From Stenotrophomonas sp. Marseille-Q4652 (GTDB taxonomy: Bacteria; Pseudomonadota; Gammaproteobacteria; Xanthomonadales; Xanthomonadaceae): DNA of 64,000 bases. The notes beneath the pieces were generated by a model that saw nothing but the letters and a program-made list of their open reading frames with translations, was not told the DNA's origin and ran no database searches. This document shows, one piece after another, positions 28,620-44,861 of the stretch. The position numbers and the translations under genes were made by a program. Position 1 is the first letter of the stretch; every line of letters begins with the position of its first letter. Where the stretch lies: contig NZ_CAKAKE010000001.1 of NCBI RefSeq assembly GCF_916618915.1, positions 1,178,001 to 1,242,000 on the forward strand, given 5' to 3'.

Positions 28620-29514
28620 ATGAAGAAGGTGAACCACGGCATCACGTTGGCCACGCCGCCGTAGTCGCGGATCATGCGCGTGTGCATGCGGTCGTAGAGC
28701 ACGCCGACGCAGGAGAACATCGCGCCGGAGATGAAGCCGTGCGAGATCATCTGCACCATCGCGCCCTGCAGCCCCAGGCGCGCCGCATCCTCGCCGCCGC
28801 TCACGTCGCGCATCAGCGAGAACGCGATGAACGTGCCCAGGGTCACGAAGCCCATGTGCGAGACCGAGGAGTACGCGATGAGCTTCTTCATGTCCTCCTG
28901 GACCAGCGCCACCAGGCCCACGTACACCACCGCGATCAGCGACAGCGCGATCACCAGCCAGGCCCATTCGTGGCCGGCGTCGGGCGTGATCGGCAGGCTG
29001 AAGCGCAGGAAGCCGTAGCCGCCGATCTTGAGCATGATCGCGGCCAGGATCACCGAGCCGCCGGTCGGCGCTTCCACGTGCGCGTCCGGCAGCCAGGTGT
29101 GCACCGGGAACATCGGCACCTTCACCGCGAAAGCGGCGAGGAAGGCGAAGAACAGCCACATCTGCTCGGTCGAGGTCAGCCGCAGCGCGTACAGGTCCGG
29201 CAACTGCCAGCTCCCGGCCTTCAGGTACAGGTAGATCAGGCCGACCAGCATGAAGATCGAGCCGAGGAACGTGTACAGGAAGAACTTGATCGACGCGTAC
29301 ACGCGTCGCGGACCGCCCCAGACGCCAATGATGATGAACATCGGGATCAGCATGGCCTCGAAGAACACGTAGAACAGCAGCGCGTCCACGGCCGAGAACA
29401 CGCCGATCATCAGGCCTTCGAGGATCAGCATGGAACCGAAGTACTGGCTCACGCGCCGGTCGATCGAGGTCCATGCGCCCACCAGCACCAGCGCGGTGGT
29501 CAGCGCGGTGAGGG
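28620..29514 (-). pseudogene. nuoM: nuoM fragment (NADH-quinone oxidoreductase subunit M)
   Basis: About 295 codons of a complex I membrane subunit are preserved, including the conserved [17 protein letters not shown], the lysine-containing [16 protein letters not shown], and [17 protein letters not shown]. The N-terminus is cut exactly at the oriIS end at 29515. The C-terminus is lost near 28620, after PWFTFFMV, just before the left IS. It cannot make a working subunit. Confidence 0.9.
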
Positions 29515-31340
29515 TATAGGAAGTTCAACCGCCCTTTTTTGCGAGTCTGGCGGGTAGGAAGCGGCCGCGCAAGCGCCGCTTTGGGCACAGATCGGGCACA
29601 GATCGGGGGTTCATGCGTGGGTTTTCGACATCGCGGGGCCGCGCAGCGGCTCAGTGCGTAGCCATTTCTCACCGAATCCCGGCACAGGGCCGAGCGCAGC
29701 CCTGCGGGGTCGTGGCCGCATCGGATCGGACTCTGGCTTGGCTGCCGGCTGTGTGGCCGGCGCCTCATCACGCGGCGGGCGGCGGGGCGCGCGCTGCGGG
29801 CCGGTAGTGCGCTTGCTCCAGCGCGCCGTGTTTCTCGAAGTGGGCGAGGATGGCGCGAATGGCCTTGGGGTCTTCGATGCTGGCGACGATCCGCACCGCG
29901 CCGCCGCAGTGGGCGCAGGTGGTGACGTCGATGGAAAAGACCCGCTTGAGCCGTTGCGCCCAGCTCATCGCACGGCGCTTCTGCTCGGGGCTGCGCGGCT
30001 CGTCGTGGGCGCTGACGTCCACTGGCACCGCATCGCCCGCAGGCCGCTTGCCGCGCCCCGAGGGCGTCAGCTGCGCGCGCAGGTTTGCATTCGGGGCAAA
30101 CACACCGTGGAAACGGGTCAGGTGGGCGCGAGGTGGCGGGACCAGTGCGGCCAGTTTCGCGATGAAGTCGACCGCATCCCATTCGACATGGGTGGTGCCA
30201 TTGCGCCATGGCGTCTTGAGCTGGTAACGCACCCTGCCCTGTGGCGAGATCGATAGCCGCTGCTCGCTGATCGCCGGGCGCGTGATGTAGCGGCACAGCT
30301 TTTCGAGCTTGTGGCTTTCGTGTGCTTCCGCGGCCACGCCGGCATGCAGCGAGAAGCCGCCGACCTTGCCGGCGTCGCCCTCCAGCGAGCCTGCGTCACC
30401 GGGCAATGTTTGCAGCGTGACGACCTTGCGGCCAGCGTCGCGACCGGTGGCGATGCGGTAGGTCATCGAACTCATCCGCAGCCCATCCATGCCGTCGTCG
30501 CTACCCGCGCTGTCGGACAGGAACACGGATTCGTCTTCGCCTTCGAGCCAGCCGCGGCGCGACAGGTGCCGGCACACGCGATGCGCGATGGTGTTGGCGA
30601 GCTGCGTCAGTTGCGCAGAGGTGGGGGCGCGGCGCAGGCGCGGTTTGCGCCGCGGGGGCTCGACGTTCGCGTCGTACACGCCGTCGAGCCACAGCATGTG
30701 GAAGTGAACATTCAGGTTCAGCGCGCTGCCGAAGCGCTGGATCAGGGTCACCGCACCGCATTGCGCCGTATCCCGCGGCACGCCGGCCTGATCGGCAAGC
30801 CAACCGGCGATCACACGATGCACGATGCCCAGCACCGGGCTGATGGCCTCCGGCTTGCTGGCGAACAGGAAGCGCAACGGGTAGGGGAAACTCAGCACCC
30901 ATTGCCGCACCGGCCGCGGGCCGAACACCTCGTCCACCAGATGCCGCGCCGACTCGGCCATGCGCCGTGCGCCGCAGCTCGGGCACAGCCCGCGCTTCTT
31001 GCAGGAATACGCCACCAGCCTCTCGGCACGACAGTGCTCGCAGACCACGCGCAGGAAGCCGTGCTCGAGCACGCCGCAACGCAGGTAGGCATCGAACGCC
31101 TCGCGGACATATCCGGGCAGCGAGCGGCCCTCCGCTTCGATCCGTACAATGAAGTCCGGGTAGTGCGCCTCTACCAACGCGTACAGCAGCGTGCGCTCGG
31201 GCGCGTGGCGCGCGTACCGCGAACCGGTGTGGGCGGACGGCAGTGGCGCGCATCCCGCGGCTTGCCGCCGGGATGTGGCGAGGCGCGGCACGCAGCGCTC
31301 CGGTGCGGGGACGGCTGCTCAGTGTTGCGCCTGTGTTCGC
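29515..31340 (-). mobile_element. ISCR/IS91-type element, copy A (complete transposase)
   Basis: The left boundary is GTATAGGAAGTTCAAC, the reverse complement of an ISCR-type oriIS end (compare GCGTTTGAACTTCCTATAC), 253 bp downstream of the transposase stop. The sequence then runs through an intact transposase gene. The right (terIS) end is not sharply defined and is placed near 31340. This is the only copy with a complete transposase and is the likely source or driver of copies B-E. Confidence 0.8.
29768..31291 (-). CDS. IS91/ISCR-family rolling-circle transposase
   Basis: This is a 507-residue HUH-type transposase. An N-terminal zinc-ribbon region (CEHCRAERLVAYSCKKRG, CPSCGARRM) is followed by the HUH motif in LNVHFHML and by a catalytic tyrosine context LCRYITRPAISEQRLS. 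Only one tyrosine is seen in that motif, as in ISCR proteins rather than two-tyrosine IS91. The C-terminal VTTCAHCGGAVRIVASIE is a second zinc-binding segment. It nicks single-stranded DNA at oriIS and replicates through terIS, which when missed leads to capture of neighbouring DNA. Confidence 0.9.
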   Translation of the reverse strand: MPRLATSRRQAAGCAPLPSAHTGSRYARHAPERTLLYALVEAHYPDFIVRIEAEGRSLPGYVREAFDAYLRCGVLEHGFLRVVCEHCRAERLVAYSCKKRGLCPSCGARRMAESARHLVDEVFGPRPVRQWVLSFPYPLRFLFASKPEAISPVLGIVHRVIAGWLADQAGVPRDTAQCGAVTLIQRFGSALNLNVHFHMLWLDGVYDANVEPPRRKPRLRRAPTSAQLTQLANTIAHRVCRHLSRRGWLEGEDESVFLSDSAGSDDGMDGLRMSSMTYRIATGRDAGRKVVTLQTLPGDAGSLEGDAGKVGGFSLHAGVAAEAHESHKLEKLCRYITRPAISEQRLSISPQGRVRYQLKTPWRNGTTHVEWDAVDFIAKLAALVPPPRAHLTRFHGVFAPNANLRAQLTPSGRGKRPAGDAVPVDVSAHDEPRSPEQKRRAMSWAQRLKRVFSIDVTTCAHCGGAVRIVASIEDPKAIRAILAHFEKHGALEQAHYRPAARAPPPAA

Positions 31341-31384
31341 ACGTTCGTATCGGTGCGTTCTGATCTTCGCGTCAGACATTGCCG

Positions 31385-31549
31385 CGGCGACTCCCGCCTC
31401 GACCGCCTCGACACCCAGGTGCAGGGCGCGGCCCAGAGCGCCGAATCCGCCAATCAGGGCGCCCAGCGCGCCAACCAGCGCCTCGACCAGATCGAAGGCC
31501 GCGTGCAGCAGCTGGAATCGTCGCCGCGCCGCGTGCCGCGCGGGTGAGC
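31385..31549 (+). pseudogene. C-terminal fragment of a coiled-coil (alanine-zipper-like) protein
   Basis: The plus-strand frame ends LDRLDTQVQGAAQSAESANQ...LESSPRR-stop, a heptad-patterned segment like the alanine-zipper parts of outer-membrane lipoproteins or OmpA-type proteins. No start or signal peptide is present. It is a fragment lying between ISCR copy A and the next captured piece. Confidence 0.4.
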
Positions 31550-31603
31550 ACGCACTCCGCTTGACCGACCGGCGCGGGGATCCGTCGCCTGCGCGGCGCG
31601 GAT

Positions 31604-31746
31604 GAACGTTGAACACCCGGGCGAAGGCATCCCGCTTCAAATGCGCCAGCCGCCCGGTGCGGTACGCCTGATCAGGCTTCATCAGGCCCGAACCCGACGG
31701 CGTTCCGCTGCGCTGCGGATCGCATTCGACCAAGGCCACGAAGCCC
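31604..31746 (-). repeat. 143-bp exact copy of part of the ICE gene at 44862
   Basis: This stretch is identical to 44945-45087 over 143 bases. It encodes part of the ICE hypothetical protein (GFVALVECDPQRSGTPSG...). The flanks differ completely, so it is a captured or recombined fragment, in the same orientation as the other copy. Confidence 0.9.
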
Positions 31747-32316
31747 GTGCTCGGCGGCCTGGGCGGGGTGCTGTCCTTTATCCTCGGCGCCATCGCCTCG
31801 ACCCTGCTGGTCAACTATTCGCGGCGTCGTCGCCTGCACAGCGAGAACGCCCTGCCGCTGCTCTGCGAGGCCGCATTGCTGCTGTGCTTCGGTTTGCTCG
31901 GCGCCACCCTGGCGAGCATCGAAGGCCTGTTCGTGCCGCTGACGGTGATGCTGCTGTGTTTCATCATGGGCCTGCAGAACGCCCTGATCACCAAGCTGTC
32001 GCGGGCGGAGATTCGCACCACCCATATCACCGGCATCGTCACCGATATCGGCATCGAGCTGGGCAAGCTGCTGTACTGGAACCGCCACGGCGAACAGTTC
32101 GGCCGGGTCCAGGTCGACCGCCAGCGTCTGCAGGTGCTGAGCCTGCTGGCCCTGTATTTCTTTATGGGCGGGATTGCCGGGGCCTTTGGCTTTAACCGCC
32201 TGGGCTATGTGTCCACGCTACCGCTGGCCTTGCTGCTGATCAGCCTGGCCCTGGTGCCGATGCTGGATGACCTGCGCTCGGGCTGGCGGCGTTTTAGGCG
32301 CGCCCGTCAGATGTAG
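31747..32316 (+). pseudogene. DUF1275 (YoaK-like) membrane protein, N-terminally truncated
   Basis: About 188 codons of a DUF1275 protein remain. They begin inside the first conserved hydrophobic region (LGGLGGVLSFILGAIASTLL) and include MGLQNALITKLSRAEIRTTHITGIVTDIG, the family core, then run to the normal-looking stop. The start codon and roughly the first 40 residues are missing at the junction with the 143-bp repeat. Codon use resembles that of the RND genes downstream, so the two probably came together from one donor, perhaps a pseudomonad. Confidence 0.8.
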
Positions 32317-32397
32317 CAGGGAATAACAGCGGGTGGACAAGCTGTGCGTTGCCCACCCTACGCCACGTCACGCCAGCATAGGGTGGACAACCGCCCC

Positions 32398-35300
32398 TCA
32401 GACTTCTGCCTTGGTCTGCGCCTTGATCCCGTAGAACACGCAATAGAGCACCGGCAGCACCACCAGGGTGAGCAGGGTGGCGAAGCCCAGGCCGAACATG
32501 ATCACCACCGCCATGCTCTGGAAGAAGGCGTCGGTCAACAGCGGGCTCATGCCCAGGATGGTGGTCAGGGCGGCCATGGATACCGGGCGTACGCGGCTGA
32601 TGGAGGCCTCTTCCACGGCCTGCAGGGCGTCCTTGCCGCTGGCCAGCTGCAGCTGGATTTCATCCACCAGGACGATGCCGTTCTTCACCAGCATGCCGCT
32701 CAGGCTGAGCAGGCCGAGCAGGGCCATAAAGCCGAAGGGAATGCCGGTCAGCAGAAAGCCCAGGGTCACGCCGATCATCGCCAGGGGCACGGTGAGCCAG
32801 ATCACGGTGGCGCGCTTGAACGAGTCGAACAGCAGGATGGTGATCATAAACATCACCAGATAACCCAGGGGCAGGCTGCCGAATACCGCGCCCTTGGCAT
32901 TGCGCGAGCTTTCGTATTCACCGCCCCACTCCAGGCTGTAGCCCTCGGGCAGGGGGATGGCCTCGACCTCGGGCTTGATGCGCTGGAACAGCTGGGCCGC
33001 GGTTTCCCCGCTGAGCAGGGCCGGATCGGCCTGCACGGTGAGGGTGCGCTTGCGGTCCAGGCGCATGATCAACGGGTCTTCCCATTCGGTGGCAAAGCCC
33101 TGCAGCACCTGCTCGATGGGCAGATAGCTGCCCCGGGCGTTGCTCCAGATCTGCAGATCACTGAGGCTGTCGGCATTCAGCCGCTCGTTGTCCGGGGTGC
33201 GCGCGACAATCGGCAGCAGGCGGGTGCCGTCGCGGTACAGGCCCACGTTCATGCCGGAGAAGCTCATGCGCAACAGGTCATCCAGTGCACTCTTGTCCAC
33301 CCCCAGTTCACGGGCGCGGGCCTCGGCAAATTGTGGACGAACCAGCTTGGTGCGCTCGTGCCAGTCGTGCATCACCGCCGTGGCCACCGGGTCCTGGCGG
33401 ATACGGCGGATGGCCTCGCCACCCAGGCGGCGTAGCACTTCGGGGTCGGGGCCGCTGAAGCGCGCCTCGATCTTGCTGTCGTTGCCAGGGCCAAGCATCA
33501 GCTGCTTGAACTTGGGTTTGACCTGCGGGTACTGCTCGGCAACATGCAGTTCCAGCTGGTTGATCAGCGGCTCGATGCGCTCCAGGTTGTCGGTGCGCAC
33601 CAGCAGCTGGGCATAGTTGGGGTACTGCTTCTGCGGCGAGTAGGTGAGGATAAAGCGCAGGGCGCCCTGGCCGATGCTGCTGCTGACCGTGGTCACCCCT
33701 TCCTGCTGCAGTACATGCTGATCCAGCTCGGCCACCAGTTGCTCGGTGTAGCGGATATCGGTGCCCTGGGGCAGCCACAGGTCGATAAAGAACATCGGCG
33801 TGTTGGATGGCGGGAAGAAGCTCTGACGCACCTTGCCGAAACCGCCGATGGCCACCACCAGCAGCACCGCCAGCAGCCCGAGGGTCAGGCCACGGCGCTT
33901 GAGGGCAAAGTCCAGCAGGGCACGGTAGGCGGTGAAGATCACCCCGCCGTAGGGATCGCCCTGATCCTGGCTGGTCAGGGTCTGGTTATCGCGGAAGAAC
34001 AGGCTGGCGAAGAAGGGCGTCAGGGTGATGGCGGTGACCCAGCTGAGCAGCAGGGAGATCAGCAGCACCTGGAACAGCGACAGGCAGAACTCGCCGGTGG
34101 AGTCGTCGGACAGGCCGATGGGGGCAAAGGCGATGATGGCGATCAGGGTGGCGCCGAGCAGCGGCAGGTTGGTCTGCTTGACGATGGCCCGCGCCGATTC
34201 CAGAGTGCTCTGGCCACGCTGGCGGCCGACCAGGATGCCTTCGACAATTACAATGGCGTTGTCCACCAGCATGCCCAGGGCGATCACCAGGGCGCCAAGG
34301 GAGATGCGCTGCAGTTCGATGCCCAGCAGGCGCATAAAGATAAAGCTGCCGAGCACCGTCAGGGCCAGGATCAGGCCGATCAGCAGGCCGCTGCGCAGGC
34401 CCATGAAGACCAGCAGCACGACGATGACAATGACCACCGAGGCGATGAAGTTGATCACGAAGTCACGCACCGAGCTTTCCACTTCGGCGGCCTGATCGTA
34501 GAACACCTGCAGCTGCATACCGGCGGGGCGCTGGTTGTCCAGCTCGGCCAGACGTGCATTGATCGCCGCGCCCACGTCCACCACGTTGACCTTGGGTGCG
34601 AAGGACACGCCCAGGGTCAGGGCCGGCTGGCCGTTCATGCGGTAGAGGTTGCCCGGGGTTTCGCTGAAGCCACGGCTGACCTGGGCGATATCGCCCAAGG
34701 TGATCTGCTGCGGGCTACCCGGATCACTGATGACCAGGCGTTCAAGTTCGCGTACGTCCTGCAGTTCTCCCGTGGGGTGCAGGCGGATCGATTCGCTGCC
34801 GGCGAGGATACGCCCGGCGTTGGACACCACGTTCTGCTGGCTGAGCACCTGAGCCAGACGCTGCGGGGCGATGCCCAGGCTGCTCATCTTGCTGCGCGAG
34901 ATTTCCACCTGCACCTGTTCCTGGCGCACGCCGGCCAGGCTGACCTTGCCCACCCCCGGCAGCAGCACCAGCTCACGGCGCAGGTAGTCGGCGAAATCGC
35001 GCAGTTCCTGGGCGCTGTAGCCCTCGCCGGTGAGCAGCAGGAAGAAGCCGAATACATCGCTGAAATCATCCCGCACCTGCGGCGGGTTGACCCCCGGTGG
35101 CAGGTTGGGCTGCAAGTCGTTGATCTTGCGCCGCAGTTCATCCCAGATTTGCGGGATCTGCTCGGCCTTGTATTGGCTGTGCAGTTCCAGGCTGATCTGC
35201 GACAGCCCGGCACTGGAGATGGAGGTGACCTTCTTGATCGAGGGCAGCTGCTGGATGGCGTTCTCCAGCGGGTAGCTGACCTCTTCTTCCACCTGCTGCG

Positions 35301-35466
35301 GCGAGGCGCCGGGGTAGCTGGTGATGACCATGGCGTTCTTCAGGGTGAAGGACGGGTCTTCCAGGCGGCCGATTCCGAGAAAGGCCAGCAGCCCGCCGAT
35401 GCCCAGCACCAGAGTGACCAGCCAGCTGGTGACGCGACGCTGGATAAAGTAGCCGGCGATATCCAT
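32398..35466 (-). CDS. RND efflux transporter permease subunit
   Basis: This 1022-residue inner-membrane proton/drug antiporter of the AcrB/MexB superfamily has the usual twelve helices and two large periplasmic loops. The TM4 proton-relay motif is visible in ALGMLVDNAIVIVEGI, where D-N replaces the D-D of AcrB-type pumps, as is common in the MMPL/HAE-like subset. It is intact from start to stop and starts directly after the adaptor gene stop. Substrate specificity cannot be read from the sequence. An outer-membrane channel gene is not present here, so it must use one encoded elsewhere. Confidence 0.93.
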   Translation of the reverse strand: MDIAGYFIQRRVTSWLVTLVLGIGGLLAFLGIGRLEDPSFTLKNAMVITSYPGASPQQVEEEVSYPLENAIQQLPSIKKVTSISSAGLSQISLELHSQYKAEQIPQIWDELRRKINDLQPNLPPGVNPPQVRDDFSDVFGFFLLLTGEGYSAQELRDFADYLRRELVLLPGVGKVSLAGVRQEQVQVEISRSKMSSLGIAPQRLAQVLSQQNVVSNAGRILAGSESIRLHPTGELQDVRELERLVISDPGSPQQITLGDIAQVSRGFSETPGNLYRMNGQPALTLGVSFAPKVNVVDVGAAINARLAELDNQRPAGMQLQVFYDQAAEVESSVRDFVINFIASVVIVIVVLLVFMGLRSGLLIGLILALTVLGSFIFMRLLGIELQRISLGALVIALGMLVDNAIVIVEGILVGRQRGQSTLESARAIVKQTNLPLLGATLIAIIAFAPIGLSDDSTGEFCLSLFQVLLISLLLSWVTAITLTPFFASLFFRDNQTLTSQDQGDPYGGVIFTAYRALLDFALKRRGLTLGLLAVLLVVAIGGFGKVRQSFFPPSNTPMFFIDLWLPQGTDIRYTEQLVAELDQHVLQQEGVTTVSSSIGQGALRFILTYSPQKQYPNYAQLLVRTDNLERIEPLINQLELHVAEQYPQVKPKFKQLMLGPGNDSKIEARFSGPDPEVLRRLGGEAIRRIRQDPVATAVMHDWHERTKLVRPQFAEARARELGVDKSALDDLLRMSFSGMNVGLYRDGTRLLPIVARTPDNERLNADSLSDLQIWSNARGSYLPIEQVLQGFATEWEDPLIMRLDRKRTLTVQADPALLSGETAAQLFQRIKPEVEAIPLPEGYSLEWGGEYESSRNAKGAVFGSLPLGYLVMFMITILLFDSFKRATVIWLTVPLAMIGVTLGFLLTGIPFGFMALLGLLSLSGMLVKNGIVLVDEIQLQLASGKDALQAVEEASISRVRPVSMAALTTILGMSPLLTDAFFQSMAVVIMFGLGFATLLTLVVLPVLYCVFYGIKAQTKAEV

Positions 35467-36561
35467 TTACAGCCCCCGCTCGCGTACCCAGGGCCTTACC
35501 GCCTGGCCTTCCTCCAGCTCGGCGCCACCCACGGCAACGATCTGCTCGCCGGGTTCGATGCCGCTGAGTACTTCGATGCTGTTGCGGCTCAGCTGGCCCA
35601 CCTCGACCTGGCGGGCCGTCAGGCGTAGCACGCCGTCCTGCTCGCGAGCCACCCACACCTGCTTGACCTCGGGGCCGCTGTCGTCCGGACTGAACACCGC
35701 CTCCACCGGCACCAGCAGGCGGCTACCCAGGTCACGGCTGACCTGGGCCAAGTCAACCTTGACCGTGGCACTCATCCCCGGTAGCAGGTTGAGACCCTCG
35801 GGACGCGGCATGGACAGGGTCACCTGATAGGTCAGGGTCTTGGGATCAGGCTGGGTGCTGTGCTCCTTATAGACCGCCTCGAACTCGCGGCCGGGCAGGC
35901 TGTCGAGAATCACGCTGGGGTGATAGTCGCGGTTCTCTTCACGGCTGCGCAGGTTGGTCAGCAGGTTTTCCGGCATCTGAAACAGCACATCCAGCTGATT
36001 GCCGCTCTGCAGGGTGACGATGGGCTGCTTGGCCTGTACCACCTGGAAGTTGTCCACATGGGTATTGGCCACCACCGCGTCGAAGGGCGCCAGAATCCGC
36101 GTGTACTCCAGCTCCTGGCGGGCCAGGCTGAGGGCCGCGCTGGCCGAGTCCAGGTTGGCCTTGCGCTGGTCATGCTCGGCGCGGGAGATCATCTGCCGCT
36201 CCAGCAGCTTGGCGATGCGCTGGAACTGCACGTTGGCCAGGTCATAGCTGGCCTGGCGATCACGCAGGCGCAGGCGCTGGTCGGCGTCATCCAGGCTGGC
36301 AATCAGCTGACCGCGTTTCACCGGCTGTCCCTGCAGCACGTTGAGGGTCTTCAGCTGGCCGCCGATACGGAACGACAGCTCGGCCTCCTCGGTGGCCTTC
36401 AGGCGCGCGGGGAATTCGCGCAGGCGCGCCCCGGCCGGATCTTCCACGGTAAACAGCTTGACCAGGCGCGGCGCCTGTTCCTGGGGGGCGGGAGCCTGGT
36501 CGCAGGCACTCAGCAGCAGGCCGGCGGGCAGGCACAGAAAAAGCAGGGGACGAAGGTTCAA
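35467..36561 (-). CDS. RND efflux periplasmic adaptor (membrane fusion protein)
   Basis: The 364-residue lipoprotein has a signal peptide with lipobox LLLSAC (Cys at about residue 20). A lipoyl/biotinyl-like half-motif pair surrounds a helical hairpin (about 85-165, LRLRDRQASYDLANVQFQRI...), followed by a beta-barrel domain. It links the permease in the inner membrane to an outer-membrane channel. Only about 44 bp of sequence separate its start from the ISCR copy B end, so its native promoter is probably gone. Confidence 0.92.
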   Translation of the reverse strand: MNLRPLLFLCLPAGLLLSACDQAPAPQEQAPRLVKLFTVEDPAGARLREFPARLKATEEAELSFRIGGQLKTLNVLQGQPVKRGQLIASLDDADQRLRLRDRQASYDLANVQFQRIAKLLERQMISRAEHDQRKANLDSASAALSLARQELEYTRILAPFDAVVANTHVDNFQVVQAKQPIVTLQSGNQLDVLFQMPENLLTNLRSREENRDYHPSVILDSLPGREFEAVYKEHSTQPDPKTLTYQVTLSMPRPEGLNLLPGMSATVKVDLAQVSRDLGSRLLVPVEAVFSPDDSGPEVKQVWVAREQDGVLRLTARQVEVGQLSRNSIEVLSGIEPGEQIVAVGGAELEEGQAVRPWVRERGL

Positions 36562-36605
36562 GGTGGCTATCCCTAATCTGGCGAGATCAATAAAAAGGCA
36601 GCCGG

Positions 36606-36922
36606 GTATAGGAAGTTCAACCGCCCTTTTTTGCGAGTCTGGCGGGTAGGAAGCGGCCGCGCAAGCGCCGCTTTGGGCACAGATCGGGCACAGATCGGGG
36701 GTTCATGCGTGGGTTTTCGACATCGCGGGGCCGCGCAGCGGCTCAGTGCGTAGCCATTTCTCACCGAATCCCGGCACAGGGCCGAGCGCAGCCCTGCGGG
36801 GTCGTGGCCGCATCGGATCGGACTCTGGCTTGGCTGCCGGCTGTGTGGCCGGCACCTCGTCACGCGGCCGGCGGCGGCGCGCGCGCTGCGGGCCGGTAGT
36901 GCGCTTGCTCCAGCGCGCCGTG
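36606..36922 (-). mobile_element. ISCR/IS91-type oriIS end, copy B (truncated)
   Basis: It starts with the same GTATAGGAAGTTCAAC boundary and is nearly identical to copies A and E for about 317 bp. It stops in the C-terminal codons of the transposase (HGALEQAHY region), so no functional transposase remains. The right junction falls in a short stretch (CAGCGCGCCGTG) shared with the adjoining formylglutathione hydrolase fragment, which suggests microhomology joining. Confidence 0.85.
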
Positions 36923-36965
36923 CCCGCCCATCGAATGCCCGCTGATCGCGCGCGCGTCGGTCACC
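36911..36965 (-). pseudogene. Tiny S-formylglutathione hydrolase fragment
   Basis: On the minus strand these bases encode VTDARAISGHSMGGHGAL. This contains the GHSMGG nucleophile elbow that is typical of S-formylglutathione hydrolases. Only about 18 codons are left, and the frame runs on into the ISCR transposase tail. The identification rests on this motif alone. Confidence 0.5.
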
Positions 36966-37139
36966 GGGAAAGCCGCAGCGCTTGCCCATGGCGGCCGCGA
37001 CAACGGCGCGCCGGGCGCGCGGCCCTACCACCCCGGCTACTACGCCGCCTTCGTGCTCGACCCCGACGGCAACAATATCGAGGCGGTTTATCATGGCGAG
37101 GCAAGACGCAGCGCGCCGTCGGTGGAGATTGCGTTTTAG
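36966..37139 (+). pseudogene. C-terminal fragment of a VOC (glyoxalase-like) protein
   Basis: Fifty-seven codons read KAAALAHGGRDNGAPG... YYAAFVLDPDGNNIEAVYH to a stop. The D-P-D-G-N-x-I-E ending is the hallmark of vicinal-oxygen-chelate proteins, including glyoxalase and bleomycin-resistance families. The N-terminal two thirds are missing. Confidence 0.75.
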
Positions 37140-37196
37140 CGGGCTCGGACGGCCTGCCCTTCATCCGCCTGCCGGCAGCTTGCTCGGTCCCTGGCC

Positions 37197-37760
37197 CTAG
37201 TTCTGGTCGGCGGGCGGCGCCGGCGGCACGATATCCTTCGGCGCGGCGGTGAGGCGGGTGCGGATGTCTTCCGCCCAGTGTCGGGCGTCCTCGTCCCGGA
37301 AAAAGCCTCCGAGATGCACGGTCACGCCATCGGGCATTTTCAGCGTGATGATCGCCGCATCGTTTGCGGGATGGTCGGCCTTCAGCTCGACCTTGGCGAT
37401 CCGCACGGCCGCCAGCGGATAACGCGTCACGCGCGTGCGAAGGGGCGATTGCCGCCTAAGGATCGCCTCGGCCGAGCGGCTGTCCAGCCGCAACTCGATG
37501 CCGGCGCCGAGCAGCGCATAGCCGAGCAGAAGCCCCGAAAGGCCGAGGGGCAGGATCACGAGGCCGACGGTGGCCAGCACCGCGCCCGCGACCGGCGGGT
37601 CTGCCCAATCGACGGATTGCGCGCTGTCCAGGTAGAAGAGGATGAACGGGATGCACAGCAGCACCCAGGGCAGCAGGAAGATGCGCAGCCAGAGCGGAAA
37701 CCTCCGCTCATAGCTTATGCCATCGTTATCGCGGGTGATGGTTTCTTCGCTCTTCCGCAT
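37197..37760 (-). CDS. Hypothetical membrane protein with PH-like C-terminal domain
   Basis: The product has 187 residues: two hydrophobic segments (about 24-44 and 58-85) followed by a soluble region with ELRLDSRSAEAILRRQSP... and IITLKMPDGVTVHLG, like bacterial PH-domain membrane proteins. It appears complete, from ATG to stop, and is the only intact gene of this cargo segment. Function is unknown. Confidence 0.6.
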   Translation of the reverse strand: MRKSEETITRDNDGISYERRFPLWLRIFLLPWVLLCIPFILFYLDSAQSVDWADPPVAGAVLATVGLVILPLGLSGLLLGYALLGAGIELRLDSRSAEAILRRQSPLRTRVTRYPLAAVRIAKVELKADHPANDAAIITLKMPDGVTVHLGGFFRDEDARHWAEDIRTRLTAAPKDIVPPAPPADQN

Positions 37761-37831
37761 CGACTTCGGTTCGCCATGACCTCCGGATCCGCGGGGTCAA
37801 CGTTTCATCCACACGACATCCCTTTCCCGGA

Positions 37832-38726
37832 GTATAGGAAGTTCAAACGCTCTATTCGGGCAGTCTGTCGGGTAGCCGGCGGTCGCGCAAGCGCCGGTTC
37901 GGACACGGACTGGACGTTCGCAACGGGAACTTCGGCATAACGCGGACGCGCTGCCTCGCAATCCACGGCCGTTCGAACCGAATCCCGGCACAGGGCCGAG
38001 CGCAGCCCTGCGGGGTCGTGGCCGCATCGGATCGGACTCTGGCTTGGCTTCCGGCTGTGTGGCCGGCGCCTCATCACGCGGCGGGCGGCGGGGCGCGCGC
38101 TGCGGGCCGGTAGTGCGCTTGCTCCAGCGCGCCGTGTTTCTCGAAGTGGGCGAGGATGGCGCGAATGGCCTTGGGGTCTTCGATGCTGGCGACGATCCGC
38201 ACCGCGCCGCCGCAGTGGGCGCAGGTGGTGACGTCGATGGAAAAGACCCGCTTGAGCCGTTGCGCCCAGCTCATCGCACGGCGCTTCTGCTCGGGGCTGC
38301 GCGGCTCGTCGTGGGCGCTTGCGTCAACCGGCGCCGCATCGCCCGCAGGCCGCCTGCCGCGCCCCGAGGGCGTCAGCTGCGCGCGCAGGTTTGCATTCGG
38401 GGCGAATACGCCGTGGAAGCGGGTGAGATGCGCGCGAGGTGGCGGGACCAGTGCCGCCAGCTTGGCGATGAAGTCCACCGCATCCCATTCGACATGCGTG
38501 GTCCCATTTCGCCACGGCGTCGTGAGCTGATACCGCACCCTACCCTGCGGTGAGATCGACAGCCGCTGCTCGCTGATCGCCGGGCGCGTGATGTAGCGGC
38601 ACAGCTTTTCGAGCTTGTGGCTTTCGTGTGCTTCCGCGGCCACGCCGGCATGCAGCGAGAAGCCGCCGACCTTGCCGGCATCGCCCTCCAGCGAACCGTC
38701 GTCACCGGGCAGCGTTTGCAGCGTGA
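37832..38726 (-). mobile_element. ISCR/IS91-type oriIS end, copy C (truncated, mosaic)
   Basis: The boundary is GTATAGGAAGTTCAAACGC, an exact complement of the recalled ISCR oriIS core. The first 150 bp differ from copies A, B and E, but from about 37990 onward the sequence is nearly identical to copy A. It encodes the last 217 codons of the transposase, including the tyrosine motif but not the HUH motif. It ends near 38726 in the middle of the gene (LQTLPGDDG region). Copy C is therefore itself a recombinant of two lineages. Confidence 0.85.
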
Positions 38727-38882
38727 GCGAGGGATACCAAGACCAGCAGGGCGAGAAATGACTGGGTTTCGATTGTTTTGTACATAGACGCATCCAAGTG
38801 TCGCGAAGCGATCGCGGTAGAGGAGCGCTATCTTAACGTGAGCCCGATTTTTTTTACAGGCGCCGAAAATAAGTCTAAAGAA

Positions 38883-38914
38883 CCTTGCCCGCTGCGCGCA
38901 CGCAGCGGGCAAGG
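38883..38914 (-). terminator. Strong hairpin terminator downstream of mscS
   Basis: A perfect 14-bp stem (CCTTGCCCGCTGCG) with a 4-base loop lies 9 bp after the mscS stop on the minus strand and is followed by a short T-rich tract. Confidence 0.8.
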
Positions 38915-38922
38915 CTGCGACT

Positions 38923-39750
38923 TTATTCCTTTGGCAGCTTTTGTACGTGGACATCCATTTGCGGAAATGGAATTTCAATGCCGGTTTCATCAAAACGCTT
39001 TTTGATGGCCTCCATCAGGGCAAAGCGCACCGGCCAGAAGTCGGCTGTTCGCACCCATGGGCGCACGACAAAGTTGATGGAGGAGTCGGCGAAAGTCATG
39101 ATGCCGACGGTGACATCTTTATCTTTCAAGACGCGCTCGTCCTCACGAGTGACGGCCAGTAGTTCACGTTTTACCACTTCAATATCGGAGCCGTAACTAA
39201 CACCAATTTCCAGGTCGATACGTCTTTCTGCCTGCAGCGAATAATTGACAATGTTGCCATCGAGAATACCGCCATTCGGGACGGTTATGGTTTTGTTGTC
39301 CGGGGTGACAAAGGTCGAGGAAAAAATAGAAATTTATTTCACCACACCCGCTGTTCCCGCTGCTTCTATATAGTCTCCGGCGCGAAATGGACGAAACAGA
39401 ATCAGCAGTACGCCTGCAGCAAAATTTGCTAATGAGCCTTGTAAAGCGAGGCCGATAGCAAGGCCGGCAGCACCAATGACCGCAATAAATGATGCCGTCT
39501 GCACACCCAGTTGTCCGAGCGCTGCTACGGCCACCACAATCAATAAGCCGTAGTAGGAAATTTGGCGGAAGAAGCTGGATACCGCGCCATCGACACCTCG
39601 ATATTCGAGGCCTTTGCTGATCACTCGGGAAATGGTTTGTGCGAGCCATTTGCCGATAAAAAAGACGGCAAGGGCCAATAGGATTTTCATGCCGTACAAG
39701 GCGGTGAGTTCGGGAATTTGGTCAATAATGGCTTGGAAATTCTCTTGCAC
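38923..39750 (-). pseudogene. mscS: Mechanosensitive channel (MscS type) with an internal TAA
   Basis: The reading frame covers 275 codons with the MscS layout: three hydrophobic helices, the pore helix region AAGLAIGLALQGSLANFAAG, and a C-terminal soluble domain ending QMDVHVQKLPKE. A single in-frame TAA at 39336-39334, between GTAGVVK and ISIFSSTFVTPD, interrupts it. No bases are missing, so this is a nonsense change rather than a frameshift. Composition is less GC-rich than the surroundings, indicating a different donor. A truncated 138-residue product lacking the cytoplasmic vestibule may still be made. Confidence 0.85.
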
Positions 39751-39809
39751 GGGTTACCTCTCCGTTTGGTGGGGAATTGTCGTCTTCACCAGAAAACCCG
39801 GTGAAGACA

Positions 39810-39840
39810 GCCGATCGCGGAACTGGAGTCCGCGATCGGC
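39810..39840 (-). terminator. Hairpin terminator downstream of the OmpA-domain fragment
   Basis: A 12-bp stem GCCGATCGCGGA/TCCGCGATCGGC with a 7-base loop lies just after the stop of the OmpA-domain frame. A second, weaker hairpin (GTCTTCACC/GGTGAAGAC) lies next to it, closer to mscS. Confidence 0.7.
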
Positions 39841-39847
39841 AGCGGGA

Positions 39848-40126
39848 TCAACGCTTGATGGTTTCCACGTTGGCGCTGACTTTGGCAGTTACGCGACGGT
39901 TGCGTGCGCGGTTTTCGGCGGTGTCATTGCTGACGATGGGGCTGGATTCACCGTAACCGACAGAGCTCACCCGTGAGCGGTCGATACCAAAACGCTCAAC
40001 CAACACACCTGCCACCGCTGCGGCACGTTTTTCGGACAACTGTTGGTTATAGGCTTCGGAACCACGATCATCCGTATGGCCTTCGAGTACAACTTTAGTC
40101 AGTGGATATTCGCGCATAAATTGGGC
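39848..40126 (-). pseudogene. OmpA-family C-terminal domain fragment
   Basis: Ninety-two codons encode the peptidoglycan-binding OmpA domain, with VVLEGHTDDRGSEAYNQQLSEKRA and VGYGESSP, plus ENRARNRRV near the end. The N-terminal part is cut off by ISCR copy D at 40127. The frame runs on into the ISCR sequence without a stop, so a chimeric protein is conceivable. It has no signal peptide of its own. Confidence 0.85.
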
Positions 40127-40767
40127 GTATAGGAAGTTCAAACGCCCTTTTCGGGCAGTCTGCTGGGTAGGCGGTGGTCGCGCAAGCCCCGTTTTGGGCA
40201 CGGATCGGACGTCTGTGAGTGGGATTTCGGCATCGCGGGGCCACGCAGCGGCGTTGTCAGCAGCCATGCTTCGCTGATTCCCGACAGCGGGCCGAGCGCC
40301 GCCCTGCGGATCGTGGCCGCATCGGCTCGGATTCCGGTTTCGCCGTCGGCTGTGCAGCCGGCAGATCGTCACGCGGCTTGCACTGGCGGTGCGCGCGCTG
40401 CGGGCCTGTAGTGCGCTTCTTCCCGCGCGCCCTGCTTCACGAAGTGGCCAAGGATGGCGCGGATGGCGGCAGGTTCCTCGATGCTGGCGACGATCCGCAC
40501 GGTGCCACCGCAGTGGACGCAGGCGGTGACGTCGATGGAAAAGACCCGCTTGAGCCGTTGCGCCCAGCTCATCGCACGGCGCTTCTGCACGGGGCTGCGC
40601 GGCTCGTCGTGGGCGCTGACGTCCACTGGCGCCGCATCACCCGCAGGCCGCTTGCCGCGCCCCGAGGGCGTCAGCTGCGCACGCAGGTTTGCATTCGGGG
40701 CGAATACGCCGTGGAAGCGGGTGAGATGCGCGCGAGGTGGCGGGACCAATGCCGCCAGCTTGGCGAT
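40127..40767 (-). mobile_element. ISCR/IS91-type oriIS end, copy D (truncated)
   Basis: It starts GTATAGGAAGTTCAAACGCC and is the most divergent copy over its first 240 bp. It then encodes the last 130 or so codons of the transposase (SWAQRLKRVFSIDVTACVHC). It ends after CTTGGCGAT at 40767, where DNA-methyltransferase sequence begins. Copies C and D share the AAACGC form of the oriIS end. Confidence 0.85.
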
Positions 40768-41249
40768 ACCAGTGCCGCCAGTACTGGGTCCAGAAGATCG
40801 GCTCTCGTTTCGGAGCCCACCCAACCGTGCGTCGCTACAACAGCAGTCGAGTTTTTGAGACCTTCCCCTTTCCGGAGGGGCTGACGCTGGATATTCCAGC
40901 TAACAAAGCCAAGTCAAACCCCCATGCCGAGACGATCGCCATAGCTGCCAGGGCGCTGGTCGAAGCCCGCGACAGGTGGCTGAACCCGCCGGAATGGGTC
41001 GAATGGGTTACGACCAAGGAAGGGAAAGCGTCCAGCTTCCCGGCACGCCCTGTGGCAAAGCCTGGACATGAGGCGGACCTGGCTGGACGTACCATTGCCG
41101 CGCTTTGCAACGAAAAGCCTGCCTGGCTTGTCGCTTTGCAGGAGGATCTGGACCGCGCCGTGGCGAAAGCCTACGGCTGGGATTGGCCAATGGAACGCGC
41201 CGAGGTGCTCAAGCGATTGTTGGAACTCAACTTGGCCAGAAGCGAATGA
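40768..41249 (+). pseudogene. C-terminal fragment of a class I DNA methyltransferase
   Basis: About 160 codons include SSRVFETFPFPEGL, RALVEARDRWLNPPEWVEWV and AVAKAYGWDW. These are the C-terminal hallmarks of large SAM-dependent DNA methyltransferases found beside restriction or defence genes. Catalytic motifs are absent, and the 5' end is replaced by ISCR copy D. It is unrelated to the PglX fragment at 1364. Confidence 0.8.
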
Positions 41250-41304
41250 AACGCTTACTTGTGAGAGGGCCGCAGAAGCGGCCCTACGCACGAAATTGCA
41301 GCAA

Positions 41305-41706
41305 CTATTCCTTCCTTAGCCACACTTCCCCAGGCTGTTCTTCAAGTCGGATCTCAAAAAACTCCAACTCATCATTGGTCAGGCCAATGTTATTGATCCG
41401 GTCATAAGCCATTTCCCACGCTTCGTCTCGTGTCGCTGCTTCAACCGTGAAGTATCCCCGTACGAGGGCCGTACCTATGGCTTGGACGTTCCATGTGGGG
41501 AATTTACTTTCGTGTTGCTTCCCCAGCAGTTTCCTTGACGCATTCTTTGCACGACCTTTCTTTACGAGCTTCTCTTCTCCTCGAAGAAGACTGGCCAGTT
41601 CACCTTCTTCATCACACCTTCTTCCGGGTGGATCGATTGCCGCCGCGTCGCCGCTGAGCAGCAGCTTGCGGCGCAACGGCGCGTTGCGGCAGGACTCACG
41701 CAGCAT
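41305..41706 (-). CDS. Hypothetical protein (about 133 aa)
   Basis: A minus-strand frame ends NDELEFFEIRLEEQPGEVWLRKE and contains VRGYFTVEAATRDEAWEMAYDRINNIG. The second half looks like a small conserved alpha/beta protein, but I cannot name it. The N-terminal half is basic and low in conservation-like features, so the true start may be internal (41600 region). Confidence 0.4.
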   Translation of the reverse strand: MLRESCRNAPLRRKLLLSGDAAAIDPPGRRCDEEGELASLLRGEEKLVKKGRAKNASRKLLGKQHESKFPTWNVQAIGTALVRGYFTVEAATRDEAWEMAYDRINNIGLTNDELEFFEIRLEEQPGEVWLRKE

Positions 41707-41756
41707 CGCGCTGCCGGAGGCATGATGACGCCCCCTGTCCCGACTGCGAGATCGTG

Positions 41757-42371
41757 ATGAAGCTGTATTCCAAGCCCGGCGCCTGTTCAACGGCGGACCA
41801 TATCGTCCTGGAATGGGCCGGCCAACCGTATGCAACCGAGATCGTGGATGCCCAGCGGCTGAAGTCGCCGGAATTCCTGGCGCTGAATCCGGCCGGTTCG
41901 GTGCCGGTGCTGGTGGATGGCGATTTCGTGCTGACCCAGAACGCCGCCATCCTGGGTTACATCGCCGATTCGACGCCCGAGTCCGGCCTGGTCGGCGACG
42001 GCAGTCCGCGCCAGCGTGCCGAGGCGATGCGCTGGATCGCGTTCGTCAATTCCGATCTGCATCCCGCCTTCAAGCCGCTGTTCGGGCCGGGCATGTTCAT
42101 GCACGGCAGCGAGCACTACGACACGGTGAAACAGGTCGCGCGCGCACGCGTGCGCAAGCTGTTCGAGTCCGCGGATGCCCGCCTGGGCGTGACCGGCAAC
42201 TGGCTGGCGGGCTTCCGCAGCGGTGCCGATGCGTACCTGTTCGTCACCCTGCTGTGGGCCGACAGGGTCGGCGTGGACCTGTCCGGTCTGTCGCATCTGG
42301 ATGCATTCAGGCAGCGCATGCTGGCCGATGCGGCCGTGCAGAAGGTCCTGGAAGCCGAGGGGTTGGCCTGA
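41757..42371 (+). CDS. Glutathione S-transferase family protein
   Basis: The 204-residue protein has a thioredoxin-like N-terminal domain (MKLYSKPGACSTADHIVL, with the conserved cis-Pro segment GSVPVLVDGDFVLTQNAAI at about 50-68) and a helical C-terminal domain. GSTs conjugate or reduce electrophiles with glutathione. A GTG one codon earlier is an alternative start. The gene is intact and is the best-preserved gene of this captured segment, which otherwise looks like Xanthomonad chromosome. Confidence 0.9.
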   Translation: MKLYSKPGACSTADHIVLEWAGQPYATEIVDAQRLKSPEFLALNPAGSVPVLVDGDFVLTQNAAILGYIADSTPESGLVGDGSPRQRAEAMRWIAFVNSDLHPAFKPLFGPGMFMHGSEHYDTVKQVARARVRKLFESADARLGVTGNWLAGFRSGADAYLFVTLLWADRVGVDLSGLSHLDAFRQRMLADAAVQKVLEAEGLA

Positions 42372-42473
42372 TCGGAAGCCGAGCCTGCATCGAGGCTGCC
42401 GGTTGGTGGCACTGCGGGCTTCCATCGCATCCGCATCCAACATGAGTGCGATGTCGATGCGGACAGGAAGCGG

Positions 42474-42968
42474 TCAGTCGTGCTGGTCCGGCCGCGTCCA
42501 GTGCTGGTGCATTTCCAGATAGGTGAACGAGGCCGACCAGGTGATCAGCAGCAACCCGGTCACCGCTTCCATGCCGCTGACCAGGCGGATCGCACCGACC
42601 GGCGACAGGTCGCCCAAGCCCAGCGTGGTGTAGATGGTGGCCGAGAAATAGATCGCATCGAACAGGGTGCGGATGCCGTGTTCGCCGTGCACGAATCCCA
42701 TGTCCGGCTGGTGCTCCAGCCAGTAGTAGGCGATGCCGTAGCACCAGATTTCCAGCACGTGCAGCAGCAGCAGGGCGAAGATCAGGCCGATGAAGCCGCG
42801 CCGGTGGCGATGTCGTTCGCGGGCATGGTGGGTGCGCGGGCCGTAGCGGCGCGCCAACCATCGCAGTCCTTCGTAGTGCAGCAGCACCACCACGGCGGTC
42901 ACCGCGGCGGTGACCAGGGTCACCTTGACGTGCTCGTCCAGCGTGCCGGGCGGAATCAGCGGCATCAT
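42474..42968 (-). CDS. Two-TM potassium channel-like protein
   Basis: The product has 164 residues. A selectivity-filter-like motif TTLGLGDLSP (compare TVGYGD) lies between two helices, with a further pair of N-terminal hydrophobic segments. This matches the Ion_trans_2 family of small K+ channels. The gene appears complete. It lies between the GST gene and the prpC fragment on the same captured piece. Confidence 0.8.
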   Translation of the reverse strand: MMPLIPPGTLDEHVKVTLVTAAVTAVVVLLHYEGLRWLARRYGPRTHHARERHRHRRGFIGLIFALLLLHVLEIWCYGIAYYWLEHQPDMGFVHGEHGIRTLFDAIYFSATIYTTLGLGDLSPVGAIRLVSGMEAVTGLLLITWSASFTYLEMHQHWTRPDQHD

Positions 42969-42984
42969 CGTTTCGGCATCCGCG

Positions 42985-43234
42985 TCAGCGGCGCTCCAGC
43001 GGCACGTACGCGCGGTCTTCCGGTCCGGTGTAGTTCGCGCTGGGGCGGATGATCTTGCCGTCCTCGCGCTGCTCGATCACGTGCGCGGCACAGCCGGTGG
43101 TGCGGGCGATCACGAACAGCGGCGTGAACATCGGCGTGGGCACGCCCATCATGTGGTAGCTGGAGGCGCTGTACCAGTCCAGGTTGGGGGAACATCTTCT
43201 TGGTGTCCATCATCAGGTTCTCGATGCGGGTAGG
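42985..43234 (-). pseudogene. prpC: 2-methylcitrate synthase fragment with frameshift
   Basis: The C-terminal ~80 codons of a citrate-synthase-family enzyme end [20 protein letters not shown]. The first codons ([11 protein letters not shown]) are in another frame because of one extra base in a C-run at about 43188-43192. [17 protein letters not shown] is the typical text of 2-methylcitrate synthase. The fragment is cut by ISCR copy E at 43235. Confidence 0.85.
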
Positions 43235-43739
43235 GTATAGGAAGTTCAACCGCCCTTTTTGGCGAGTCTGGCGGGTAGGAAGCGGCCGCGCAAGCGCCGC
43301 TTTGGGCACAGATCGGGCACAGATCGGGGGTTCATGCGTGGGTTTTCGACATCGCGGGGCCACGCAGCGGCTCAGTGCGTAGCCATTTCTCACCGAATCC
43401 CGGCACAGGGCCGAGCGCAGCCCTGCGGGGTCGTGGCCGCATCGGATCGGACTCTGGCTTGGCTGCCGGCTGTGTGGCCGGCACCTCGTCACGCGGCCGG
43501 CGGCGGGGCGCGCGCTGCGGGCCGGTAGTGCGCTTGCTCCAGCGCGCGGTGTTTCTCGAAGTGGGCGAGGATGGCGCGAATGGCGGTGGGTTCCTCGATG
43601 CTGGCGACGATTCGTACCGCGCCGCCGCAGCGGGCGCAGGTGGTGATGTCGATGGAAAAGACCCGCTTGAGCCGTTGCGCCCAGCTCATCGCACGGCGCT
43701 TCTGCTCGGGGCTGCGCGGCTCGTCGTGGGCGCTGACGT
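43235..43739 (-). mobile_element. ISCR/IS91-type oriIS end, copy E (truncated)
   Basis: It starts GTATAGGAAGTTCAACCGCC and is close to copies A and B over about 500 bp. It encodes the last transposase codons and stops after CGCTGACGT, where a KfrA-like coding sequence begins. The oriIS side abuts the prpC fragment. Confidence 0.85.
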
Positions 43740-44286
43740 TGACCACTTCCGGGCCCAGGCGCAGGAGCAAAGGGCACGCGAGCAACGTCAGCACGAACAG
43801 GCCCTTCAGGCGTTGCAGGTCGAACTCCGCCAGGCCGCGGACCAGGTCACCGCCAAGAACGCGGAGCTGCTGAGACTCAATCGTGATAACGGCCGCCTGC
43901 TTGAACAGACCACGCACCAGCAGAAGGCGTTGACGGAGGCCGAACGCGAGGTCCGCAAAGCTCGTGAAGAACTGGAATCCTTGCGACCGCTTCCGGCACA
44001 AGTGACATCCCTCGAACAGCGAACGGCAAAGGCGATCACAGACGCAGAGGTGCTGCAGTCCCACCTGGACCAGGCGAGATCGCAACTTGAGCAAACGCGC
44101 CGAGAGCTACGCGATTCCGAACTCGAACGCGAGCGAACCCAGGCTCGGTTTGAAGGCATGCAGGCCGCGTGGGCTCAGCGTGATGCGACATTGACGCCGG
44201 CGACGGAGCCCGTCGAGCGCACCGGCAAGCGTCGCGTGCGTCCGCCTGCAGCCGAAGAGGCGACCCAAGACCTTCCTCTGAAGTAA
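43740..44286 (+). pseudogene. KfrA-like coiled-coil protein, C-terminal fragment
   Basis: About 180 codons form an almost unbroken coiled coil (heptads rich in Q, E, L, R), ending RRVRPPAAEEATQDLPLK. This is typical of the C-terminal region of KfrA-type proteins, which are DNA-binding plasmid/ICE segregation factors. The N-terminal DNA-binding part is missing at the ISCR E junction. This piece and the next come from an ICE or plasmid. Confidence 0.65.
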
Positions 44287-44861
44287 TGGGCGCCAGCGGC
44301 GCGGCGAAGGAACACAACGTCTCACTGATCTGCGGTGGCGAAATTGCTGCAGCGACAATCGGTTACCGAAGATTGTCGGACTTTTCCCGAATTAACGGCC
44401 AACCCTCGGTAACGGTGTTCATGTGAAATCTCCTGTCCCACAAGGGGACCTTGTTCAAACAATGGAAGACATAGTGAAAAGGTTGGGAAGTCAGTCGTTG
44501 CTGTGCATGGGCGCTCTCCTTGGGTGTTGGGCTCCGCAGGGGCCGCGAAGCCCTTCGCGGCCATGGGCAGCAGCTGGGGCCGGCGCGGGTGCGCCGTCAA
44601 GGGAGGAAGCGAAGGCGCTGGCGCGGCCCGCAGGCGCAGCCGAGGACACGGGCGCCGCAGCGGCCCTTGACGGGGGGAGCGCCCGCAAAGGCCAGGCAAG
44701 CCGGTGAAACCGGCGCGCAGGGGGTGCGAATCGCGCAGCACTGCCGGAGAGAAAGGGGTCGGCCCATTGGGTTGAGGGTCAACCCCAACAGCGCAGCACA
44801 GCATCAGAAAAGCGCCGCTCCCGCGATGTACGGGGCGGCGCCACAAGGCCTCAACGCAGCG
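44287..44861. other. Non-coding-looking ICE-type segment
   Basis: No credible gene is seen in these 575 bases. A 19-codon minus-strand frame (44422-44363, MNTVTEGWPLIREKSDNLR) and a very GC-rich stretch (44520-44720) are the only features. Open frames through the GC-rich part look like composition shadows. Confidence 0.4.

Follow-up and report, generated by a model that had tools for sequence, protein, structure and literature searches.

An ISCR27-group cargo stack as a likely exchange slot in an integrative and conjugative element of Stenotrophomonas

In the 64,000-nt stretch of the Stenotrophomonas sp. Marseille-Q4652 genome analysed here (contig NZ_CAKAKE010000001.1, positions 1,178,001 to 1,242,000; referred to below as the window), five oriIS ends of insertion sequence common region (ISCR) elements stand within 14 kb, each with different DNA on its left. 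We consider it likely that this stack is a variable slot of an integrative and conjugative element (ICE), bounded by ISCR27-group sequence, in which mobilised units docked and were exchanged by homologous recombination at an ISCR scar. An earlier note on the same DNA, written from the sequence without database searches, had read the stack as at least four rounds of one-ended capture.

Results

The end motif GTATAGGAAGTTCAA occurs exactly five times in the window, always on the + strand (at 29514, 36606, 37832, 40127 and 43235), and exact searches of the whole 3.35-Mb genome returned five forward matches, no reverse match and none for a reversed control pattern. With up to two mismatches allowed, 0.01 matches would be expected by chance and five were reached in 0 of 100 shuffles, which rules out a chance origin. 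These are the sharp ends that the earlier note had recognised as oriIS ends, the first of them lying one base to the left of where the note put it. Each is followed by transposase sequence on the - strand, which the note had described as the C-terminal part of an IS91/ISCR transposase. One ISCR copy (c1) is complete and the other four (c2 to c5) are cut on the side of the transposase gene (tnp) at different points, their match to c1 ending at c1 positions 317 (c2), 907 (c3), 650 (c4) and 505 (c5). Comparison of the copies thus finds left ends that are precise at ori and truncations that are internal and on the other side.

The extent of the ori end was assessed on 84 left flanks from the window and other genomes, each at least 60 nt long and unique over 20 nt. 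The conserved end proved 2 nt longer than in the earlier note, and nothing further out was conserved. The dinucleotide before the end depends on the lineage of the element, being GG in 57 of 60 CCGC-type ends (TC in 3) and GC in 19 of 24 ACGC-type ends (GG in 3, AC in 1, GA in 1), and it is therefore most likely part of the element. IS91 itself has a GTTC/CTTG-type tetranucleotide next to ori. No such tetranucleotide was fixed at any position in the last 20 nt of the 84 unique flanks (highest count 3), and the IS91 target rule was rejected for these ends.

The complete copy, c1 (29512-31387, - strand), has oriIS at its left, tnp at 29768-31291 and a probable terIS side at ~31387; several relatives leave the c1 sequence at positions 1871-1876. 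Its intact transposase open reading frame (ORF) scores 1139 bits over residues 1-507 against the NCBIfam model NF052416, 'ISCR clade Ia' (cut-off 925), falls below the cut-off of the general IS91 model NF033538, and contains the Pfam domains Y2_Tnp and Zn_Tnp_IS91 and an HUH-type motif, HFH, at residue 196. Two catalytic tyrosines, YxxxY, are characteristic of IS91 itself; the 507-aa c1 transposase has no match to YxxxY. A comparison with known ISCR elements, suggested in the earlier note, pointed to ISCR27, the oriIS of which is published as GCGGTTGAACTTCCTATACC, 236 bp downstream of the tnp stop (PMC8894482): its exact reverse complement is present in three of the five copies (c1, c2 and c5, at 29513, 36605 and 43234), the gap in c1 is 235 bp, and the c1 transposase is 92.6% identical over 498 residues to that of the Providencia rettgeri plasmid pYPR31. 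Copies c3 and c4 differ from the ISCR27 oriIS inside the 20-mer.

The proposal in the earlier note that two or more element lineages fed the stack was borne out: c1, c2 and c5 are C-type, c4 is A-type and c3 (37830-38726, - strand) combines a diverged ori arm with a c1-identical stretch. Although c3 differs from c1 at 92 of 910 columns, 272 consecutive columns are identical, and no run of this length arose when the difference positions were shuffled 20,000 times, a test that ignores uneven constraint. By this pattern c3 is a mosaic copy.

The stack occupies a slot in an island of ~76 kb at guaA. The ends of the island are marked by a 17-bp direct repeat, TTCACTCCCACTCGATC, at 25497-25513 and at window coordinate 101451 (outside the window), and the second copy of the repeat lies at the 3' end of a 521-aa ORF, which is the GMP synthase gene guaA. 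Between the repeats lie genes for TrbI, TrbG, TrbL, TraG, a relaxase and an integrase (the last two called by Pfam, their NCBIfam hits being below cut-off), and by gene content the island is an ICE with a trb-type transfer module. That ICE DNA lies on both flanks of the stack had been missed by the earlier note.

We compared this ICE with those of another Stenotrophomonas (G006), a Hydrogenophaga contig (G091) and a Lysobacter contig (G100), the latter two from metagenome-assembled genomes (MAGs) and all three draft or MAG assemblies. On the right of the stack, window 43233-58569 is 99.5% identical in G006 as far as that stretch reached, with a lower identity further out (96.2% over 27 kb); 43235-62590 is 96% identical in Hydrogenophaga, and 43233-50264 is 99.7% identical in Lysobacter, up to the limit of a 20-kb stretch. 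On the left, the flank 27030-28614 is 100% identical in G006 and 99.9% in Hydrogenophaga, and the part common to Lysobacter is only 27734-28614 (IS5 plus 53 bp), at 100%. In these three ICEs the flank directly abuts ori, CACCAGAGGT being followed at once by GG and the ori end. The slot holds five ori ends in the window, three in Hydrogenophaga, two in Lysobacter and four in G006, the last spread over three unordered contigs. It includes an RND pump in Lysobacter that is 93.9% identical to that of the window and, in G006, the RND unit of the window at 99.96%.

The right-most ISCR fragment, henceforth the pad (c5 in the window, 43233-43739, - strand, consisting of ori and 505 nt of element), adjoins the same ICE sequence at exactly the same base in all four ICEs, and has four different left flanks. 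Beside the pad, 1,524 alignment columns of ICE DNA show 0 differences in all six pairs. Over the 516 ISCR columns of the pad itself, gaps counted, the window differs from G006 at 8, from Lysobacter at 14 and from Hydrogenophaga at 91 columns, G006 differs from Lysobacter at 14 and from Hydrogenophaga at 91, and Lysobacter differs from Hydrogenophaga at 92. The Hydrogenophaga pad is of the A lineage, only 3 of 496 positions off window c4, whereas the pad of the window is of a different lineage. Because the pads differ beside identical ICE sequence, the right junction most likely arose a single time, with later replacement of the ori-side portion of the fragment and of the DNA to its left; this divergence is most plainly read as recombination within the ISCR fragment.

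Repeated one-ended rolling-circle insertion by the transposase at the same place, each time with its own cargo from a donor chromosome, is an unlikely source of this pattern. It accounts for the precise ori ends and the intact c1 transposase ORF, and transposition of ori-tnp-cargo would also give one right junction (505, 1081 or 1112) with different lefts. It would not, however, replace the ISCR part of the pad beside 1,524 untouched columns, keep a left flank while truncation and cargo change, or make mosaic copies.

We next consider how junctions combine across the element group. Starting from 89 stretches with the ori pattern in 84,980 species genomes, together with fetched genomes, we classified the junctions of loci L016-L124 and the window, leaving out L024, L026, L033, L041, L048, L051, L063, L106 and L113-L118 as duplicates or unrelated. 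Of 121 ori ends that had 30 nt or more of left flank, 120 could be aligned; 39 were cut by contig ends and 81 were counted. These 81 copies with both junctions fall into 58 left classes, 50 right classes and 68 combinations. Eight of the 58 left classes are joined to at least two right classes, one of them being common to G006 and the one-contig genome G008, and nine of the 50 right classes are joined to at least two left classes; among these nine, classes 505, 1081 and 1112 are clear internal truncations. The reassortment extends to the stack itself: from the same RND left DNA and the same ori junction as c2, the element runs to position 1081 in G006 and to 317 in the window, and the 1081 right side is preceded by RND in G006 and by the ICE flank in Hydrogenophaga. 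A left flank with different right sides would not be expected from plain transposition. In addition, among copies reaching position 1070 at at least 88% (33 copies, 31 distinct), incompatibility between informative sites at most 100 nt apart was 0.35 compared to 0.60 in permuted data (0 of 2000 permutations as low), and such greater compatibility of nearby sites is a standard sign of recombination.

The stretch 31747-36923, comprising the RND unit and the start of c2, is 99.96% identical in G006. Since the RND unit is thus preformed in the G006 array and the pad is replaced beside an unchanged ICE, recombination between ISCR copies appears to move ready-made units, and the number of junctions therefore does not count capture events. 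We accordingly reject the counting of capture rounds by ori ends, and of the earlier note's four rounds only part can be upheld.

Errors of assembly at the ISCR repeats could have made some or all of the swapped junctions: two G006 contigs, C1 and C7, break off within ISCR copies, both the Hydrogenophaga and the Lysobacter sequences come from MAGs, and the putative crossover lies in a stretch of 58 columns in which c4 and c5 are identical, a length near assembler word sizes. We regard this as improbable, given that the genome of the window is assembled into 2 contigs and is 100% complete, that the junction of RND and the c2 ori is present in two assemblies, that the one-contig genomes G008 and G052 have stacks too, and that the c3 mosaic lies inside the window genome itself. 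Ordinary nested insertions of independent insertion sequence (IS) copies, followed by deletions and with common flanks inherited, are very improbable: the stack does have an IS5 and a further IS-type transposase gene (25928-26905) beside it, and some truncations elsewhere (L038/L070, L123) start with what we take to be other IS ends, but all five copies point in the same direction, keep a precise ori and are cut only on the other side, and the swaps of pad alleles would go unexplained.

The earlier note had called five ends in 14 kb unusual, which did not hold up. In the genus, 6 of 90 genomes (own included) matched the element group at E <= 1e-40, and one of its members, the one-contig G008, has eight ISCR27-group matches within 41 kb, in both orientations (C1:2730049-2770708; L122, L018, L019). 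Two of these matches enclose DNA ~70% similar to the RND pump of the window, and the stack is larger than that of the window. G052, listed as one contig, has five matches, four of them within 12.4 kb. These come from a survey of 12 hand-picked, non-random genomes (three Stenotrophomonas that matched 28540-45300, one with the ICE side, L026, and eight with interesting ori ends), which gives no frequency. The five-end stack is, by these comparisons, not unique among hosts of the element group, and that it is a private feature of this genome is ruled out by G006, G008, G052 and the loci of relatives. Separately, many contigs of Pseudofulvimonas gallinarii end near the ISCR ori region (L025, L040, L053, L055, L059, L060, L069, L077, L104), which suggests a genome rich in ISCR27-group copies.

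Truncation points at c1 positions 317, 641, 782 and 1657 recur to the base with different right flanks, in window c2 and c4, L019, L020, L036, L068 and L123. The exact recurrence amounts to four pairs among 31 hand-listed junctions, compared to 0.27 expected under uniform placement, and was reached in 0.0004 of shuffles (0.011 with 1-nt tolerance); BLAST ends are fuzzy, and the c4 junction was re-read to 641 owing to a 14-nt repeat. Preferred stops inside tnp are possible, as an exploratory lead and not a result.

The pieces between the ends are mixed, as the earlier note had it, with GC contents from 0.52 to 0.67 (ISCR and a 216-bp segment apart). The left ICE flank (27030-28614) includes an IS5-family element at 27733-28561. 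Between this flank and c1 lies a nuoM-type fragment (Proton_antipo_M, 28615-29511, - strand), which is missing from this place in the other three ICEs and, because it is only ~82% identical to the nearest stretch of its own genome, probably came from another species. At 28610-28615 the ICE flank closes with GGGTA, the five bases with which the ori end starts, and nuoM comes next; a deletion that began at the ori end and ran into captured nuoM may have made this junction. To the right of c1, the 216-bp segment (31388-31603) also follows near-identical elements in G008, Luteimonas padinae and Lysobacteraceae NML91-0213, and the window departs from the sequence common to these after 31603. It is followed by a 143-bp exact copy (31604-31746, + strand, starting with GAAC) of ICE DNA at 44945-45087, flanked by two units that continue differently in other genomes.

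The RND unit (31747-36603) comprises a DUF1275 gene remnant (31747-32316, + strand), a permease (32398-35466, - strand) and, as left neighbour of c2, an adaptor (35467-36561, - strand). Following c2 (36604-36922, - strand, the ori end and 317 nt), the cargo 36923-37829 contains a fragment, read by eye as a VOC/glyoxalase end and without a Pfam hit, and a 187-aa ORF (37197-37760, - strand). Low-GC (0.52) cargo at 38727-40124 (- strand) carries pieces of an MscS channel and an OmpA domain interrupted by the ori of c4 (40125-40767, - strand). The cargo between c4 and c5 (40768-43232) has four ORFs: one of no assigned family (40737-41249), a GST (41754-42371, + strand), an ion channel (42474-42968, - strand) and, as left neighbour of c5, a citrate synthase C-terminus (42985-43182, - strand). 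The left neighbours named in the earlier note were recovered as nuoM-type, RND adaptor, OmpA and citrate synthase sequence, but its 'PH-like' gene left of c3, the 187-aa ORF, gave no Pfam or NCBIfam hit. The searches run identified no known resistance gene in the stack; an uncharacterised RND pump is present.

To the right, ICE DNA extends from 43740 to the window end at 64000. An ORF of coiled-coil appearance runs out of c5 (43375-44286; its only hits were SMC-type and fell below cut-off), Mnh/Mrp-type antiporter genes (46955-51571) form ICE cargo adjoining the stack, and TrbI (56924-58201), TrbG (58204-59328) and TrbL (59910-61295) follow. The IS-type transposase gene beyond the left flank (DDE_Tnp_1, within 25881-27029) is not at the same place in G006 or the Hydrogenophaga MAG, and a caspase-domain (Peptidase_C14) gene lies within the ICE at L115:4593-5567, with a chromate transporter gene close by. 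The Tn4371 ICE family proper is defined by a Tn4371-type integrase, an attachment (att) site TTTTTCAT and the full backbone order; TTTTTCAT is absent from a scanned 124-kb stretch that includes the window, and the att of the window ICE is at guaA.

The whole gene order without the repeat was not found among 91 genus genomes (query 28540-45300; three candidates scored in each, among the matches listed) or 369 class genomes (query 31388-45300; two candidates scored in each), and none of 72,556 plasmid records had a single place covering 80%; the earlier note had named such an undisturbed order as what would speak against it. The donor search that it proposed yielded no donor of the cargo. At E <= 1e-60, with two candidates for each of the 369 class genomes, 31388-45300 had no cargo match of at least 90% outside its own genome, and the only cargo matches above 90% met at all were the RND unit (G006 and, for the pump at 32405-36577, 93.9% in the Lysobacter MAG) and the 216-bp segment (several genomes and one plasmid). 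Donors of the nuoM, MscS/OmpA and GST/channel/citrate synthase pieces were not found in the genomes searched. In plasmids the RND piece matched pumps at 72-74% over at most 21% of the query, and the ICE side gave only short matches among the matches listed. The ICE side matched in 27 of 397 genomes, at full length only in its own genome and G006 and otherwise over short stretches. For one complete G008 copy, no empty site was found among 90 genus genomes (three candidates scored in each; 6 with any match, own included).

Discussion

In the account that we favour, an ISCR copy reaching only position 505 would have been left in the ICE, forming a scar with CACCAGAGGT before the ori end and the coiled-coil ORF after the cut tnp. 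Elsewhere, we infer, ISCR copies, often truncated, would be served in trans by an intact transposase, and rolling-circle replication from oriIS would carry neighbouring DNA out as ori-tnp-cargo units, in the proposed circle of which the cargo end is joined to GGGTATAGG. Such units would then enter or be exchanged by homologous recombination in common ori-tnp sequence, at the ICE scar or at ISCR copies already in the slot, a step that the comparisons support. Outer junctions would thereby be kept, one ori added per unit, scar alleles swapped, and left and right junctions reassorted. The five ends of the window would reflect several such exchanges and at least one later rearrangement of the left edge.

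Several points weigh against this account. Neither a circle nor transposition was observed, and the 397- and 369-genome searches turned up no ICE whose slot was empty or had a single copy. Simple docking does not predict the nuoM-type fragment between the ICE flank and the ori of c1, and leaves unexplained both the 143-bp ICE fragment inside the stack and the truncation of the tnp copies. Three of the four ICEs come from draft or MAG assemblies, which are open to wrong joins at repeats and to wrong binning of contigs. The C-type ori arms of the four ICEs are so conserved (0-3 differences per 250 positions) that the arm of the founder scar is untraceable by identity. Finally, the other six of the nine right classes with several lefts may be variants of the element, and interruption by what looks like another IS accounts in part for the left class of L038, L070 and L099.

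The combination of a circle with homologous recombination is already known as a model. For ISCR1, Toleman et al. proposed (model given in PMC7707992) that aberrant rolling-circle replication yields a circle, which homologous recombination then inserts one or more times; insertion of a circle into a single ISCR1 copy has also been proposed, the recombination being unnamed in the relevant passage (PMC10819877). As those sources present them, multicopy complex class 1 integrons resemble our account in this respect; in contrast, docking there is at qacE-sul1 or ISCR1 and the repeat units are identical, whereas the window has a 505-bp ISCR scar in an ICE and unrelated cargo. In Tn4371-family ICEs of P. 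aeruginosa, composites of ISCR4 with blaSPM-1 and of ISCR24 with blaNDM-1 (PMC6299553) likewise place cargo bounded by ISCRs in an ICE that has MPF-T transfer genes, but with other ISCRs and other cargo, and the passages on these composites describe no exchange between ICEs. ISCR2 composites with tet(X) are reported in Acinetobacter (PMC7722449), and ISCR2, 3, 9 and 10 in S. maltophilia (PMC2725981); ISCR-linked arrays are there ascribed to transposition and recombination and ISCRs are known in the genus, whereas the lineages are other ones. The literature searched, which covered few subscription journals, contained no description of this ICE slot.

ISCR27 itself is located downstream of groL near blaNDM on resistance plasmids, and is hypothesised to have first mobilised a blaNDM progenitor; the passages of that report on blaNDM give no evidence of its later mobility (PMC8894482). 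The window group differs in that it forms multi-copy, reassorting arrays, and in that its stack holds no identified resistance gene.

Tentatively, and with slightly more doubt than belief in the reading as a whole, the ICE may carry a reusable cargo dock, in which the 505-bp ISCR scar serves as an integrase-free counterpart of an integron platform. General recombination could then exchange any ISCR27-group unit in the cell at this scar, and exchangeable content would travel between beta- and gammaproteobacteria in one ICE family.

Models exist for how DNA carried by ISCRs enters a new place, and ISCR transposition is so far experimentally unproven in the account given in PMC13393415. Four ICEs with an identical backbone beside an exchanged ISCR fragment constitute a natural experiment, which helps to separate homologous recombination from transposase action. 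Moreover, a near relative of the hypothesised mobiliser of the blaNDM progenitor (PMC8894482) here appears to form and exchange arrays in other settings.

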